Shown piece by piece: positions 14,469 to 32,747 of a stretch of 33,000 nucleotides of DNA. Both the position numbers and the translations under genes were made by a program. Every line of letters begins with the position of its first letter. Positions within the stretch are counted from its first letter, which is position 1. Origin of the DNA: Chlamydiia bacterium (GTDB taxonomy: Bacteria; Chlamydiota; Chlamydiia; Chlamydiales; Rhabdochlamydiaceae); NCBI GenBank assembly GCA_021324995.1, contig JAJPIB010000050.1, forward strand, positions 1 through 33,000, given 5' to 3'. A model generated the notes under the pieces. It was not told the DNA's origin. It made no database searches and was given only the letters and a program-made list of their open reading frames with translations.

Positions 14469-14632
14469 TATACCCAACGTGACTGAAAATTTGGTTTAGG
14501 ACCGAAGCGAAAGCTCCCGCGATTGGCACGATTGAATCGTCGCCCCTATTAGAAATAGGGGCTAGATTCGATCATCCAATCCCGGGGCTTTGGCTCGGTC
14601 TTAAATCCAAATTTTCAATCACGTTGGGTATA
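14469..14632. mobile_element. 164-bp foldback MITE-like element, family A copy 1
   Basis: A non-coding palindromic element bounded by TATACCCAACGTGA at the left and TCACGTTGGGTATA at the right. The terminal inverted repeats extend about 37 bp with a few mismatches. The interior also folds on itself: GCCCCTATT pairs with AATAGGGGC around a 3-base loop at the centre, so the whole unit can form one long hairpin. It is the same length as the copy at 19922-20085 and differs at about nine positions. Flanking TATA at both ends suits a TA-targeting transposase acting in trans (inference). It sits directly upstream of the NADAR gene. Confidence 0.85.
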
Positions 14633-16332: not shown

Positions 16333-17577
16333 TTATCTCGTCTCTAAAAGCGGGAATCCAGGAATTCCTTTTTCCACTTTTCTCCAAAGAGCACCAAGAA
16401 GGTAATTTGTCGCAAGTAAAATGTTTGTCTCGCGGCTTCCGCGGCAGACAAATTTCCCTACATCAGGAACCTTGCCGCGCTCACCGATCGCTGCCCAAAT
16501 TGTACCGACAGGCATGTCTTGGGTGCCCCCAGTAGGGCCCGCGATTCCCGATACTGCGATGGCATAATCCGCTGACGTCTTTTTAAAAACGCCTTCCAAC
16601 ATCTCACGAACTACCTGTTCACTTTCTGCGCCATTAGATCTTAGTGTCTCCGGGGATACGCCGAGAATTTGCTGCTTCATCGCATGAGAATAAACGACAA
16701 AGGATCCCAAAAAATAGGTGGAAGCGCCGGGAAGAACCGTCACATGGCTGGCAAGCATGCCTCCCGTGCACGATTCTGCGAATGCCAACGTCTTTTGATG
16801 TTTCACAAACCAAGCCATCAATGCTTCTTCGATTTTTCCCGAAGAAGCATTGAAATGGTAATTGCCGAAATGTTTCTCAAGCGCTTTTTGAACCGAAGAA
16901 AGCGCATCTTCATCTGAAGACAGAAAGCAAACGGATAAAATGCCATGTCCGGGATAAATGCCAAACTCTACCGAAGGGTATTGCGCAGATAGCTCGCGCA
17001 AAAGAGGATCGATGAGGCTTTCGTAGACAATGCACAAGTTCATCTGAACCATTCTCTTAATTTGGCCAACAGGCCACCGTCGGTGCAATAGTGGAATCAC
17101 TTGTTCAAGGAATAAAGATTCGACTTCTTTCGGAACTCCTGGCAGAAGGATGAGTGTTTTTCCCTTTTCTGAAAAGACCAACCCAGGCGCCGACCCTATA
17201 GAATTATGCAAAGCTTTTGCCTTGCAGGGAATCCTCGCCTGATCTTTTACAGCGGAGTATCGGTCTTGATACCGTTTTTTTAACTCCTCAGCTATCGAGG
17301 AATCGATGTAAAAGTCGGAATCGAAAACTTCTGCAGCAACCTCTCGGGTAATATCATCGAGGGTGGGGCCAAGTCCACCCGTGCAAATGACGAGATCGCT
17401 GCGCACAAGCGCTTCTTCCAATCCTAAGCGGAGTTGTTCTTCCTGATCGGGAAGGGTGGTTTGCCGTGAAACGCTGTATCCATTTTTCTGGAGAAGATGG
17501 CATAAAGAAGAGGCATTGGTGTTGATAATTCGCCCTTTGAGGATCTCATCTCCGATAGATATGATTTCGATTTTCAT
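16333..17577 (-). CDS. cinA: CinA-like protein (MoaB/MogA-like domain plus PncC amidohydrolase domain)
   Basis: CinA combines an N-terminal COG1058 domain (ADP-ribose/NMN-pathway pyrophosphatase in characterised members) with a C-terminal nicotinamide-nucleotide amidase domain, so it recycles NMN within pyridine-nucleotide metabolism. The N-terminal part shows IEIISIGDEILKGR (3-16) and VICTGGLGPTLDDITRE (63-79 region). The C-terminal PncC domain shows AESCTGGMLAS and AVSGIAGPTGG. The ATG at 17577 gives 414 residues, the normal length, begins exactly at the conserved KIEIISIGDE, and overlaps the upstream stop by 4 bp (ATGA). The frame is open 20 codons further upstream, but that part belongs to the neighbour gene. 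The name comes from competence regulons; no competence role is implied. Confidence 0.88.
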   Translation of the reverse strand: MKIEIISIGDEILKGRIINTNASSLCHLLQKNGYSVSRQTTLPDQEEQLRLGLEEALVRSDLVICTGGLGPTLDDITREVAAEVFDSDFYIDSSIAEELKKRYQDRYSAVKDQARIPCKAKALHNSIGSAPGLVFSEKGKTLILLPGVPKEVESLFLEQVIPLLHRRWPVGQIKRMVQMNLCIVYESLIDPLLRELSAQYPSVEFGIYPGHGILSVCFLSSDEDALSSVQKALEKHFGNYHFNASSGKIEEALMAWFVKHQKTLAFAESCTGGMLASHVTVLPGASTYFLGSFVVYSHAMKQQILGVSPETLRSNGAESEQVVREMLEGVFKKTSADYAIAVSGIAGPTGGTQDMPVGTIWAAIGERGKVPDVGKFVCRGSRETNILLATNYLLGALWRKVEKGIPGFPLLETR

Positions 17578-18287
17578 GGGTGTACCGCTCGTACTTCTAT
17601 CCCTTTGCTTTGTAATTGAGGATGCATTTTGCTCCAAGCAATAGATTTTTTTCCAATGCGAATAGGCGCATTTGTTCTCACCCCATTGACTACAAATGGC
17701 GTCGCAAGAGTTGCATTACGCATCCATTTCGAAAGTTTGGAAAAGAGAAGATTGTTTGGAAAATCTGCAAGTGTAGACACTTTATGAATTTGATGGGTTT
17801 TTAGGTCTTGAAATAGCTGCGGATAAGAAAACTGCAATCCCCAAGAAACGCTCTCTGCACTGAACACCATGGGGTGAAATTTAGCATCTCGTTCTGAATA
17901 AAAAAAGGAATGCGCCTGAAGCTGGATTACAGGCTGAATCGGTTTAATGAGAAATTTGTCAGAGCCGATGCTAATAGCATAAAAAGTGCTGAGATCAGTT
18001 GTCATCGCCGAAGAAAAACAGCGCCTAAAATCGCTTGCGGGTGGCACTTTTCCCTGCTTAAGCAATTCGACATAGGCGGCATACTTTTCTCCAAACCTCT
18101 TCGATGAGAGTACAGCATCCTCTGCTGTCACTGGCTCCGCAACGCAAACGAATTGCGCGCTGCCCAGATAAGAAAGAAGGTCGTTCATTTCCTCTGCATC
18201 AAGCAACACCTGAAATTTTAACCACTTGGAAACTTGAAGAATTCCCTCTGTCTTCGGTGTGCTAATGCGGATGGGGAAAGAAGACAT
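17574..18287 (-). CDS. Uncharacterised protein coupled to cinA
   Basis: I do not recognise this 237-residue protein. It is soluble-looking, with no signal peptide or membrane segment. It has a hydrophobic/polar alternation suggesting an alpha/beta fold, and several conserved-looking aromatic/His stretches (FFYSERDAKFHPMVFSAE near the middle, TPFVVNGVRTNAPIRIG near the end). Its stop overlaps the cinA start by 4 bp, so it is very probably co-translated with cinA and the CPBP protease. Base use is like the core genes around it. It may be one of the Chlamydiota-restricted conserved proteins, but I cannot confirm that here. Confidence 0.7.
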   Translation of the reverse strand: MSSFPIRISTPKTEGILQVSKWLKFQVLLDAEEMNDLLSYLGSAQFVCVAEPVTAEDAVLSSKRFGEKYAAYVELLKQGKVPPASDFRRCFSSAMTTDLSTFYAISIGSDKFLIKPIQPVIQLQAHSFFYSERDAKFHPMVFSAESVSWGLQFSYPQLFQDLKTHQIHKVSTLADFPNNLLFSKLSKWMRNATLATPFVVNGVRTNAPIRIGKKSIAWSKMHPQLQSKGIEVRAVHP

Positions 18288-18356: not shown

Positions 18357-18390
18357 TATACCCAATGTGACTGAAAATTTGGTTTAGGAC
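18357..18390 (+). mobile_element. Solo left end of family A foldback element
   Basis: These 34 bases match the left terminus of the 164-bp family A element (TATACCCAATGTGACTG and the following TTTAGGAC) with one difference from the internal copies. The match ends exactly where the carotenoid oxygenase stop codon begins (complement of 18390-18392). It carries T at the position where the other left ends have C (CAATGTGA against CAACGTGA). That variant is otherwise seen only at the right terminus of the 19922-20085 copy. Confidence 0.75.
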
Positions 18391-19895
18391 TATTCTTTAT
18401 TAAAATATTGGCCATGAAAACCAGCGGGTATTAAATGCGGTGCCCTAGCGCGCCCAAGTTCTTTAAAGTTTTTTGCATCCAGAATTAATAAGAAAGAATC
18501 TTGATGAATGTGATCTAAAATTAGAGCAAGCACAACTCCTTCATCTTCTTCTATCGCTCCAGGAAGAGGCACAAACACGGGCTCACCGGAAGAACATCCT
18601 TTTTCAGCCCATACGAATGTTTCTTTTGTTGTAGGATTGATCTTATAGAGTCCTTCGCCATTCAGCTCTTCATTGTCATAAGACTTGCGATTAACACCCG
18701 ATAAATACAAATGATGATAGGGATTCCCATCGAATCTTTCATTAATCCTAGGAAATTCACATGGCTTTGAAAGCAAGACATCAGAAGTTATTTCACCCGT
18801 ATTCAAAGACAAAGAAAATCTCTCTAATTGAGATGGATAACTTTTATCTAAAGTCATTCCAGAATCAAGGTATAAACCTCCAATAATCTCAGCGTCATTG
18901 TATGTCACTATATCTAAGTAAATAAGACCATCTTTTTCAAAAGCATTCGCATGATGAAATGCAAAAAATGGTTTTGTCATATATCTACCGACCAAATGAC
19001 CATTGCATTTGTCTAAGACCACAAAGCGAGTTCCTCTCTTTGGCTGCCAATTAAAATTCTTAATAAATGCTTGATTTTTTGTGATTAAATCTAGCGGTTT
19101 AACAACTAAAGGGAACTCTGTAAGGATAACATAGTTTTCAGTGACTGCAAAACTATGCATGTAAGCAGGTTCTTCTACAGGCACTTCAGCAAGGATTTTT
19201 CTCTCACTAGTTCCATCTTCTAAACTATAGAAAGTGTAACAGCTAGTCTGCCCAAAGTTAATGAGATAATTCAACACCCTTTTTTGCTGACTATCATAAT
19301 GTGGGTGTACGGATTCCCAGCATCTATTTCTTGGTAACGCATCCTGATAATCCAGTGCTCCCATTGTCTCGAGAGTTTGTAGATCAAATTTTACTGGTAA
19401 AGGCACCTCAGTCAGAGCTACATATTCGTTAGCTAATTTTGCCACGTTGACGTTTGCGTTTTGAATAACGGGATGAGAATTTGGAATAAAAAACGTCAAG
19501 AATTTTTCGAAGATGGAACGACAAGGATCGGATGCAAACCCTTCGTAATTTAAAGAACCCTCGTCAAAAACAGTATGATAGGCATTGGAGCGAAGAAATT
19601 TATTCGAATAATTCACTGTACCTTGGTGAAATGAAAAAGCATGGAGCATAGCAAGTCCATCAAACCAATGTTCATTGCTTTGTCCATCAGCAATCACTTT
19701 GATAGGTCCATTACGAATCAAAGCTCCTGATAACCAATCGGGGATTGTTCCCGTAGTTTTCAGAGGCACGTTTTCCATTTCTTCTTGAAGTTCTGCGGAG
19801 ATGTTTGTCTTATTTATGCTTTTATTGGACATAGCAAGAAGACTCAAAGCACCACCAAAAAACATAGTTATTATTGTGGCTTTAAAAAATTTCAC
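18390..19895 (-). CDS. Carotenoid cleavage oxygenase (RPE65/BCO family)
   Basis: A non-haem iron enzyme that cleaves carotenoids or apocarotenoids oxidatively, plausibly yielding retinal-like products. In the 501-residue reading, the seven-bladed propeller family is recognised by WLSGALIRNGP (54-64), DPCRSIF (123-129), and four iron-histidine regions: SVHPHYD (H197), YMHSFAVTENY (H247), FAFHHANAFE (H314/H315) and AGFHGQYF (H494). Glutamates expected in the second shell are also present. The GTG start at 19895 is chosen because AAGAGG precedes it by a few bases. It begins MKFFKATIITMFFGGALSLL, a signal-peptide or membrane-anchor-like segment. The frame stays open to 20162, but that extra stretch is foldback-element DNA. 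Codons look AT-richer than in core neighbours, hinting at transfer. Confidence 0.87.
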   Translation of the reverse strand: MKFFKATIITMFFGGALSLLAMSNKSINKTNISAELQEEMENVPLKTTGTIPDWLSGALIRNGPIKVIADGQSNEHWFDGLAMLHAFSFHQGTVNYSNKFLRSNAYHTVFDEGSLNYEGFASDPCRSIFEKFLTFFIPNSHPVIQNANVNVAKLANEYVALTEVPLPVKFDLQTLETMGALDYQDALPRNRCWESVHPHYDSQQKRVLNYLINFGQTSCYTFYSLEDGTSERKILAEVPVEEPAYMHSFAVTENYVILTEFPLVVKPLDLITKNQAFIKNFNWQPKRGTRFVVLDKCNGHLVGRYMTKPFFAFHHANAFEKDGLIYLDIVTYNDAEIIGGLYLDSGMTLDKSYPSQLERFSLSLNTGEITSDVLLSKPCEFPRINERFDGNPYHHLYLSGVNRKSYDNEELNGEGLYKINPTTKETFVWAEKGCSSGEPVFVPLPGAIEEDEGVVLALILDHIHQDSFLLILDAKNFKELGRARAPHLIPAGFHGQYFNKE

Positions 19896-19921
19896 ATTAC
19901 CTCTTTCTGATCTGTTGCTTG

Positions 19922-20085
19922 TATACCCAACGTGACTGAAAATTTGGTTTAGGATCGCAGCGAAAGCTCCCGCGATTGGCGCGATTGAATCGTCGCCCCT
20001 ATTAAAAATAGGGGCTAGATTTGATCGTTCAATCCCGGGGCTTTGGCTCGGTCTTAAACCCAAATTTTCAATCACATTGGGTATA
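19922..20085. mobile_element. 164-bp foldback MITE-like element, family A copy 2
   Basis: Same length and layout as the copy at 14469-14632, with about nine substitutions. It starts TATACCCAACGTGACTG and ends AATCACATTGGGTATA. The central GCCCCTATT/AATAGGGGC stem is intact, and paired changes elsewhere leave the foldback largely preserved. It lies 26 bp upstream of the carotenoid oxygenase start. Read on the minus strand it is open in that gene's frame, which artificially extends the reading frame. Confidence 0.85.
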
Positions 20086-20356
20086 TGGTGGATATTTTTG
20101 AAATGGAGCTGCACGAAATAGAAAACTCGCCCACAATTCCAACCCAAATTTTGAATTCGCAAATTGTACCCAAATGAGAGTTAAAAGTCACTAGACCTCT
20201 TGCATAACCCTTCTTCGCGCCTGTGCCCTTGCGCAGTCAGTATTTTTCTGAGCCATTTTTACCTGTATATACTGGTGACGTTTCAATGGGTCATAGAATT
20301 TTGGTTTTAAGAGGTCTATTCATTGAACAGTTAGCCCCAAGGCTTTTAGAATCGAC
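20086..20356. other. Intergenic stretch between element copy 2 and lspA
   Basis: No gene is visible. Around 20130-20190 there are short degenerate echoes of the family A end (CCAACCCAAATTTTGAATTC, and GTACCCAAATGAGAGTT), possibly an eroded third terminus. The rest is occupied by the separate 125-bp inverted-repeat element at 20193-20317. This accumulation of remnants marks the right edge of the accessory block. Confidence 0.5.
20193..20317. mobile_element. 125-bp terminal-inverted-repeat remnant
   Basis: The sequence begins AGACCTCTTGCATAACC (20193-20209) and ends GGTTTTAAGAGGTCT (20303-20317). The reverse complement of the end, AGACCTCTTAAAACC, matches the start with a small indel. No reading frame of useful length lies between. 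The size and termini suit an internally deleted insertion sequence or MITE of a family different from the 164-bp element. No clear target-site duplication is seen. Confidence 0.5.
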
Positions 20357-20899
20357 TTATGAGGCTTGTTTGGGCGATTTTCTGGAAGACTTTCTGTGAT
20401 GCAACTTGGCGATTATAGATTCTGCGATTAAAAGTAAGATTCCTAAAAAGATGAGGCTATCAGCAATGTTGAAGACGGGATAGGAATAACTACCCAACTT
20501 AAAGTAAAACATGTCGACGACATGTCCGTAAGCGAAGAAATCGCTGACGTTTCCGATGGCGCCTGTTGTCACTAAGGTTAAACAAAATTTCCGATAGGGG
20601 CTTGCTGACACAAAAAAGAGGTAGGTCAATAGGCCGCCAATGATTGCGACACGGACATAGAGCAGATACTGTTGTAAGGAAGCAAAGGCACCCCACGCAG
20701 CGCCTTTGTTAATGACATGGACAATGGAAAAATCGATCCCATGCCAATCGCGAAAAACGGCAATTCCTCCATAAGGATAGACAGGCGTCGAGGCGCTAAT
20801 CGTGGGGATATTGTGATGGATGTAAGCCTTAAGATAGATGTCTAGCAAAAGCAGGCATAAAGCAGCGAATCCAAAACTTAAGGCCTTTTTCCAGTTCAT
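20357..20899 (-). CDS. lspA: Lipoprotein signal peptidase (signal peptidase II)
   Basis: An inner-membrane aspartyl protease that removes signal peptides from prolipoproteins after lipidation. In the 180-residue reading there are four hydrophobic helices. The conserved NKGAAWG (64-70) is present, as are the catalytic aspartates D120 in GAIGNVSDFF and D147 in FNIADS. The C-terminal tail is basic. The frame is open to 21010, but the first 37 codons lie inside dksA in another frame. The ATG at 20899 begins just before the first helix and 6 bases past the dksA stop. It closes a compact nrdR-dksA-lspA operon, the same order as CT406-CT408 from memory. Likely substrates in this window are the ABC solute-binding protein and the lipoprotein at 31276. 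Confidence 0.92.
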   Translation of the reverse strand: MNWKKALSFGFAALCLLLLDIYLKAYIHHNIPTISASTPVYPYGGIAVFRDWHGIDFSIVHVINKGAAWGAFASLQQYLLYVRVAIIGGLLTYLFFVSASPYRKFCLTLVTTGAIGNVSDFFAYGHVVDMFYFKLGSYSYPVFNIADSLIFLGILLLIAESIIAKLHHRKSSRKSPKQAS

Positions 20900-20904
20900 G
20901 CGCG

Positions 20905-21270
20905 TTAAAGAAGTCCTTTTTCTAATTTCTCTTGAGACTTGACAGTCATTGCCGCATAAGGAAGGGCCTCCAAACGCGCCAATGGGATCTCTTCCCCCGA
21001 AAGGTCGCAAATACCATAAGTGCCCTCCGCAATTTTTTCCAGGGCGCGTTCAATTTGGCGCAGAATATCAAACTCTTTACTGGTCACTTCTAAAGTAATG
21101 GTCCGGTTGAAGTCGTCTGTACCTTCGTCGGCTTGATGCTGGGAATAGCCCTTGGACTCATCTGCAGCTTTAACGTCTTCGCTCGAATCGCGAATCAGAT
21201 TCGTCATCTGATAGCGCATTTCCTCAAGACGTTTTTTAAATTTTTCTATGTCTGCTTTTTTTAACGCCAT
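20905..21270 (-). CDS. dksA: DksA/TraR-family RNA polymerase regulator with degenerate zinc site
   Basis: A coiled-coil regulator that inserts into the RNA polymerase secondary channel and adjusts rRNA and amino-acid promoters. The 121 residues give an N-terminal coiled coil (about 5-80), with an acidic tip region near ADEGTDDFNR (47-56), then the globular end with GICDLSGEEIPLARLEALPY (86-105). E. coli DksA has four zinc cysteines; here the first is present (C88) and the others appear as S91, T109 and S112. A zinc-independent form is therefore likely, comparable to the cysteine-poor paralogues known in Pseudomonas. Start ATG follows a weak GAGA. The gene lies between nrdR and lspA in one operon. 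Confidence 0.85.
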   Translation of the reverse strand: MALKKADIEKFKKRLEEMRYQMTNLIRDSSEDVKAADESKGYSQHQADEGTDDFNRTITLEVTSKEFDILRQIERALEKIAEGTYGICDLSGEEIPLARLEALPYAAMTVKSQEKLEKGLL

Positions 21271-32651: not shown

Positions 32652-32747
32652 TATATCGAAAATGATTCAAGAATCAGTTTGGCAAAGCATGCGCCAGAAT
32701 TTTGATCAGGTGCAGCCGAAACCGATTCTTGAATTATTTTCGGTATA
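32652..32747. mobile_element. 96-bp foldback MITE-like element, family B
   Basis: The left terminus, TATATCGAAAATGATTCAAG, and the reverse complement of the right terminus, TATACCGAAAATAATTCAAG, match over about 32 bp with a few differences. Inner bases also pair (TGCGCC with GGTGCA), so the element can fold into one hairpin. No reading frame of use is inside. The TATA(C)C ends resemble those of the 164-bp family A element, though the rest differs. It lies 38 bp upstream of the partial gene at 32786. Confidence 0.7.

Follow-up and report, generated by a model that had tools for sequence, protein, structure and literature searches.

An inserted carotenoid oxygenase gene between foldback MITE ends in a member of the Rhabdochlamydiaceae: mobility as a unit is unproven

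A gene that lies between two matching transposon ends raises the question of whether it was carried to its place inside a transposon. This question is posed by a carotenoid oxygenase gene of a chlamydial genome (GCA_021324995.1), for which a preliminary description proposed that positions 18357-20085 moved as a single gene-carrying MITE. The features of the locus are listed in Table 1; the window is the whole stretch of 33,000 nucleotides that was analysed (contig JAJPIB010000050.1, positions 1 to 33,000).

Table 1. Genes and repeat elements at the oxygenase locus (window positions)
Feature	Position	Strand	Remarks
Conserved gene hyp17574	17574..18287	-	no Pfam match; left neighbour of the insertion; directly after lspA in relatives
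Lone left-type end of the 164-bp foldback element, CAATGTGA variant	18357..18390	+	without partner end; last base inside the oxygenase stop codon
Carotenoid oxygenase gene, intact	18390..19895	-	RPE65 family, 501 aa, GTG start
Complete 164-bp foldback MITE copy	19922..20085	+	left end CAACGTGA, right end CAATGTGA
Second MITE family, one-ended remnant (TATATACTGGTGACGTTTCAAT...)	20258..20326	+	complete copies of ~178 bp elsewhere in the genome
lspA (signal peptidase II)	20357..20917	-	right neighbour of the insertion
Second complete 164-bp copy in the window	14469..14632	+	outside the proposed unit

The element ends were arranged as the preliminary description had read them. The lone end, TATACCCAATGTGACTGAAAATTTGGTTTAGGAC on the plus strand, agrees over its 34 bp with the left end of the 164-bp element. 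It abuts the oxygenase, whose stop codon occupies 18390-18392 (CTA on the plus strand, TAG on the minus strand), with base 18390 common to both. On the other side, the complete copy, which folds as one long hairpin (z = -12), is located 26 bp upstream of the GTG start codon (19893-19895), and this codon is preceded by an AGAGG ribosome site. The two outer termini of 18357-20085 are both CAATGTGA, while CAACGTGA is present at the inner left end of the 19922 copy and at both ends of the 14469 copy. The outermost ends (18357, plus; 20085, minus) are in inverted orientation and face correctly with the gene between them, but a whole miniature element is present on one side of the gene only. Rfam gave no match within the window. 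A candidate older relic of the 164-bp family to the right of the full copy was rejected, as its best match was no better than shuffles.

The oxygenase showed a full-length profile match to PF03055, and the nearest solved structure is 6vcf (query residues 35-499, E = 2.6e-141). It resembles the carotenoid cleavage dioxygenases of the RPE65 family in this match and in its conserved histidine motifs, and differs from them by an N-terminal hydrophobic segment; scores against the specific NCBIfam models were far under the cut-offs. In the alignment with homologues, its C-terminus lies within a few residues of their ends, and therefore the element end stands directly behind the natural stop codon. 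The gene has a GC content of 37% and a GC3 of 0.29; most of the sampled genes lie near 0.44, and this value is among their lowest 2%. One oxygenase is present in this genome, and the gene was found in 14 of 76 genomes including this one, some of the matches being partial or weak. Its distribution is patchy and non-syntenic, with a different location in each relative. Common neighbours, by which its former home was sought, were detected neither between genera nor between the congeners G006 and G001. The closest relative is the oxygenase of a Parachlamydia bin (60-62% identity) and not those of the two congeners (support 99/98). The simplest reading is that the oxygenase was probably acquired horizontally.

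The lspA site was compared in eight relatives (G006, G004, G001, G003, G008, G021, G028 and G029). Each of them has lspA directly beside hyp17574, with cinA as the following gene and no oxygenase in between. Since none of the eight has the oxygenase at this site, something was inserted here, and the comparison confirmed the gene as an insertion between hyp17574 and lspA in this lineage. Neither of the two observations that the preliminary description named as contrary to a mobile unit was made: an oxygenase at the lspA locus without element ends was seen in none of the eight, and no case emerged of a gene ancestral here with the elements missing from relatives; these relatives are too diverged to place the junction of the empty site with respect to the outer ends. 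The preliminary description had also pointed to possible copies of the same 1.73-kb unit at other loci, and no second copy was found in this genome or elsewhere. In five relatives, the surroundings of the oxygenase were searched for 164-bp-family ends or long inverted repeats, and none of this family was found. A second candidate for an empty-site comparison is a gene at C34 (9502-10665), which is absent from seven of the eight relatives and whose neighbour was not placed in the close relatives either.

The 164-bp element consists of terminal inverted repeats that fold back over the whole length, and is too short for a transposase gene. The 1.94-Mb genome contains 41 near-full copies, with 91-100% identity to the one at 14469, and 341 termini at three mismatches or fewer, one per 5.7 kb (reversed-pattern control, 0), which is far more than chance would give. 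Further counts were taken from a 708-kb sample with mechanically called genes, which covers about a third of the genome and mostly contigs known for complete copies; the assembly is 92% complete and is broken at repeats. The 50 paired elements of the sample were 164-165 bp (31), 129 bp (3), 96-98 bp (7) or 64-65 bp (4) long, with a few of other lengths. Since several small elements have a deletion in common, the small subfamilies appear to have multiplied as such, for which ends of ~26 bp would suffice. The 34-bp lone end at the oxygenase is longer than the ends of the multiplied 64-65 bp subfamily, and therefore it could be functional. Lone ends are frequent, being found at at least 20 of 92 element loci, and two element loci within 1.6 kb of each other are nothing unusual: 18 of 69 intervals between loci were this short, where ~13 were expected at random.

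A nested copy (C20:35-198) lies inside the C-TA-G of another copy and shows a TA target duplication (GAATC-TA-GCCCC to GAATC-TATACC...GGTATA-GCCCC; one case only). The 164-bp element is a non-autonomous foldback MITE inserting at TA, and the duplication signature is compatible with IS630/Tc1-type or some IS5-type transposases. As the duplication lies within the conserved TATA end, it is uninformative on a joint insertion of 18357-20085. DDE_3 (IS630-type) matched only once in the genome, to a broken fragment where a contig ends, and no 164-bp-family ends were found in 12 kb of its contig; DDE_3 was the one transposase family searched for an autonomous partner with the same ends in this 92%-complete genome, and no such partner was found. 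The family resembles other bacterial MITEs in being short, non-coding and of high copy number, with full-length terminal inverted repeats, a TA duplication and size subfamilies (164, 129, 96-98 and 64-65 bp), and differs from them in its very high density and in that this DDE_3 search identified no autonomous partner. Judged from titles and abstracts, none of the papers listed for MITEs with Chlamydiae deals with the 164-bp element. A few copies suggested that the element inserts into the loops of terminators or palindromes, which was rejected, as the empty sites of 48 copies were no more folded than neighbouring TA sites. Elements with similar ends occur in three genomes of the same bacterial family (G016, G035 and G037), and their interiors differ in G035 and G037. 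In G037, a probable diversity-generating retroelement (L156:1036-5740) lies between facing ends related to the 164-bp element, 4.7 kb apart, and comprises a reverse transcriptase, an Avd protein and, as possible targets, a pair of similar proteins of which one has an F-box-like match.

The matching CAATGTGA outer ends had been taken as the sign of a single unit. In the 708-kb sample, T at the diagnostic position, which lies at a CpG, was found in 18 of 149 ends (~12%), 12 of them being exactly CAATGTGA. The T state of the two ends was not coupled within the 50 complete elements, both ends having T in one, and given one T end, a second has a chance of ~12%. The match is therefore of little diagnostic value, and this part of the proposal fell; a mobile unit would not require matching outer ends in any case.

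The suggested search for other genes flanked by the same termini found such genes in the sample, including some that have not moved. The udk gene (C56 805+/1573-) has facing lone ends at distances of 7 and 27 bp; four relatives (L150-L153) have this gene between tgt and tdk. The lepB gene (C61 25577+/27739-) is bracketed by facing ends 2 and ~200 bp away, and its neighbour is kept in G006, G008 and G028; these distances were counted from the end of the nominal 34-bp terminus. At AT-rich genes with an informative lone end, the orientation was right for a unit in three of six cases (the oxygenase, C31 26353 and C42 317) and wrong in the other three (C47 13597, C15 3911 and C24 3348). Because the ends are very common and close facing ends also arise around genes that never moved, the bracket does not show transport of the oxygenase inside a transposon. 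The lone ends of 20-26 bp directly upstream of the lepB (C61:27739) and udk (C56:1573) starts may form part of their leaders.

The distribution of the elements is related to gene composition. Within the sample, 17 genes were flanked on either side by an element at 400 bp or less, as compared with 8.8 expected. The mean GC3 was 0.36 for two-sided genes, 0.42 for one-sided genes and 0.45 for genes with none (p = 1.5e-4 and 7e-7), in a test that was devised after the data were seen. By arithmetic on the counts, the rate of an element on a given side was 0.38 at GC3 < 0.33, as against 0.11 for other genes. Seven genes with GC3 < 0.33 were two-sided, a small excess over the 4.2 that independence of the sides predicts. 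Genes that are strongly AT-rich in third positions and closely flanked on both sides include C31:26353-26955, C47:13597-14568, C15:3911-4648 and C24:3348-4493. The MITE association with AT-rich, probably imported genes is strong, and close two-sided flanking by the 164-bp family is a possible marker of recently acquired genes.

The same gaps also receive a second MITE family of ~178 bp with the ends TATATACTGGTGACG / TATATACTGGTGACGTTTCAAT, found at 15 loci of the sample; besides the remnant in the window, its loci include C31:27118-27300, C15:4911-5105 and C47:16871-17065. It clusters with the 164-bp family, six of the 15 loci being within 300 bp of it where 1.4 were expected (p = 0.0015), and its remnant in the window sits in the same gap as the full 164-bp copy. 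Two further repeats were observed in the window. An inverted repeat, CTAGACCTCTT...AAGAGGTCTA (20192-20323), surrounds the second-family remnant and is perhaps a third element type; a similar sequence occurs in G021 (L089, ~5095 and ~5370). A short foldback at 32652-32747 has 29-bp arms that are 90% complementary (TATATCGAAAATGATTCAAGAATCAG) and resembles TATACCGAAAATGATTCAAAAATTGG ends elsewhere in the genome.

The reading that we favour, with a probability of roughly 60%, is that the bracket is convergent and not a mobile unit: MITEs gathered in permissive gaps around an imported gene, and the left copy was later truncated. The oxygenase would have been acquired horizontally and inserted between hyp17574 and lspA, as the comparison with relatives showed for the insertion. 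Copies would gather in insertion-tolerant gaps, chiefly around acquired non-essential genes; the statistics establish the association, and tolerance is its presumed cause. Of two 164-bp copies, the one that inserted in the oxygenase's 5' gap would have remained complete, and the other would have inserted in the 3' gap, where a deletion up to the stop codon may have left its outer 34 bp. Tolerant gaps that collect several kinds of element, with later truncation, would explain the association, the clustering and the one-ended remnants together. This convergent bracketing is favoured by the high terminus density, the common lone ends, the udk and lepB controls, the 3:3 orientation, the association of elements with AT-rich genes, the near-independence of the two sides, the TA duplication at the nested copy, the second family in the same gaps and the remnant beside the full copy. 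It is less well suited to a lone end that touches the stop codon exactly, with no spacer, as a random deletion need not do so. The slight excess of two-sided flanking of AT-rich genes over independence also counts against it, and apart from the element ends, the oxygenase borders show no sign of the mechanism by which the gene arrived.

Movement of 18357-20085 as one non-autonomous transposon, with the lone left end and the full copy's right end as its borders, the oxygenase as its cargo and a transposase in trans, is possible but unlikely. What stood of this proposal is a lineage-specific insertion of foreign composition and patchy distribution, between outer ends that face correctly and are long enough, given that a subfamily with ~26-bp ends itself multiplied. 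Two-sided flanking goes with AT-rich genes, and a similar arrangement surrounds the AT-rich gene of a Cass2/GyrI-like protein (C31 26061-27122). The same facing arrangement at the ancestral udk and lepB genes, the right orientation in half of the informative cases, the frequency of the CAATGTGA state and the lack of a second copy weigh against it, as does the intergenic remainder outside 18357-20085, which is ~340 bp long (roughly 10-160 bp for the gap in relatives) and holds another MITE remnant. A broader version, also doubtful, is that this TA-targeted foldback family of an environmental chlamydia carries single accessory genes as cargo, flanked by ends that are full or minimal (20-34 bp), and spreads them round the genome, the oxygenase being one of several units; on this view, brackets of the wrong orientation would stem from units that decayed or were rearranged. 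Homologous recombination of a molecule carrying the oxygenase and one element with a resident element, which leaves a copy on each side, the left one then decaying, is improbable: dispersed near-identical copies provide homology, foreign genes with elements on both sides are accounted for, and no active transposase is necessary where a broken IS630-type fragment is the only one found, but two complete copies in the same orientation are predicted where one is complete, 164-bp repeats are short for frequent recombination, and no donor molecule is known.

True units have their nearest precedents in the TIME-COMPs, in which a gene lies between two miniature elements and some of which were shown to move with a Tn3-family transposase in trans (PMC13367494). 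The oxygenase locus resembles them, including IMU/blaGES-5, in its gene between miniature elements and in the movement by a trans-acting transposase that has been proposed. The TIME-COMPs have two whole elements, Tn3-type ends and 5-6 bp duplications, and movement was experimentally demonstrated for some, whereas the oxygenase locus has a 34-bp lone end on one side and an uninformative TA as its duplication, and its movement is hypothetical. It cannot be filed with the TIME-COMPs by their defining features.

This case separates a tempting pattern, a gene between matching transposon ends, from what the pattern can prove: at a density of one end per 5.7 kb, brackets around a single gene also form where the gene never moved. 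Recently acquired genes of chlamydiae could be easier to recognise by the MITE association with AT-rich genes, and if true units exist among the brackets, MITEs would give obligate intracellular bacteria a means of shuffling accessory genes.
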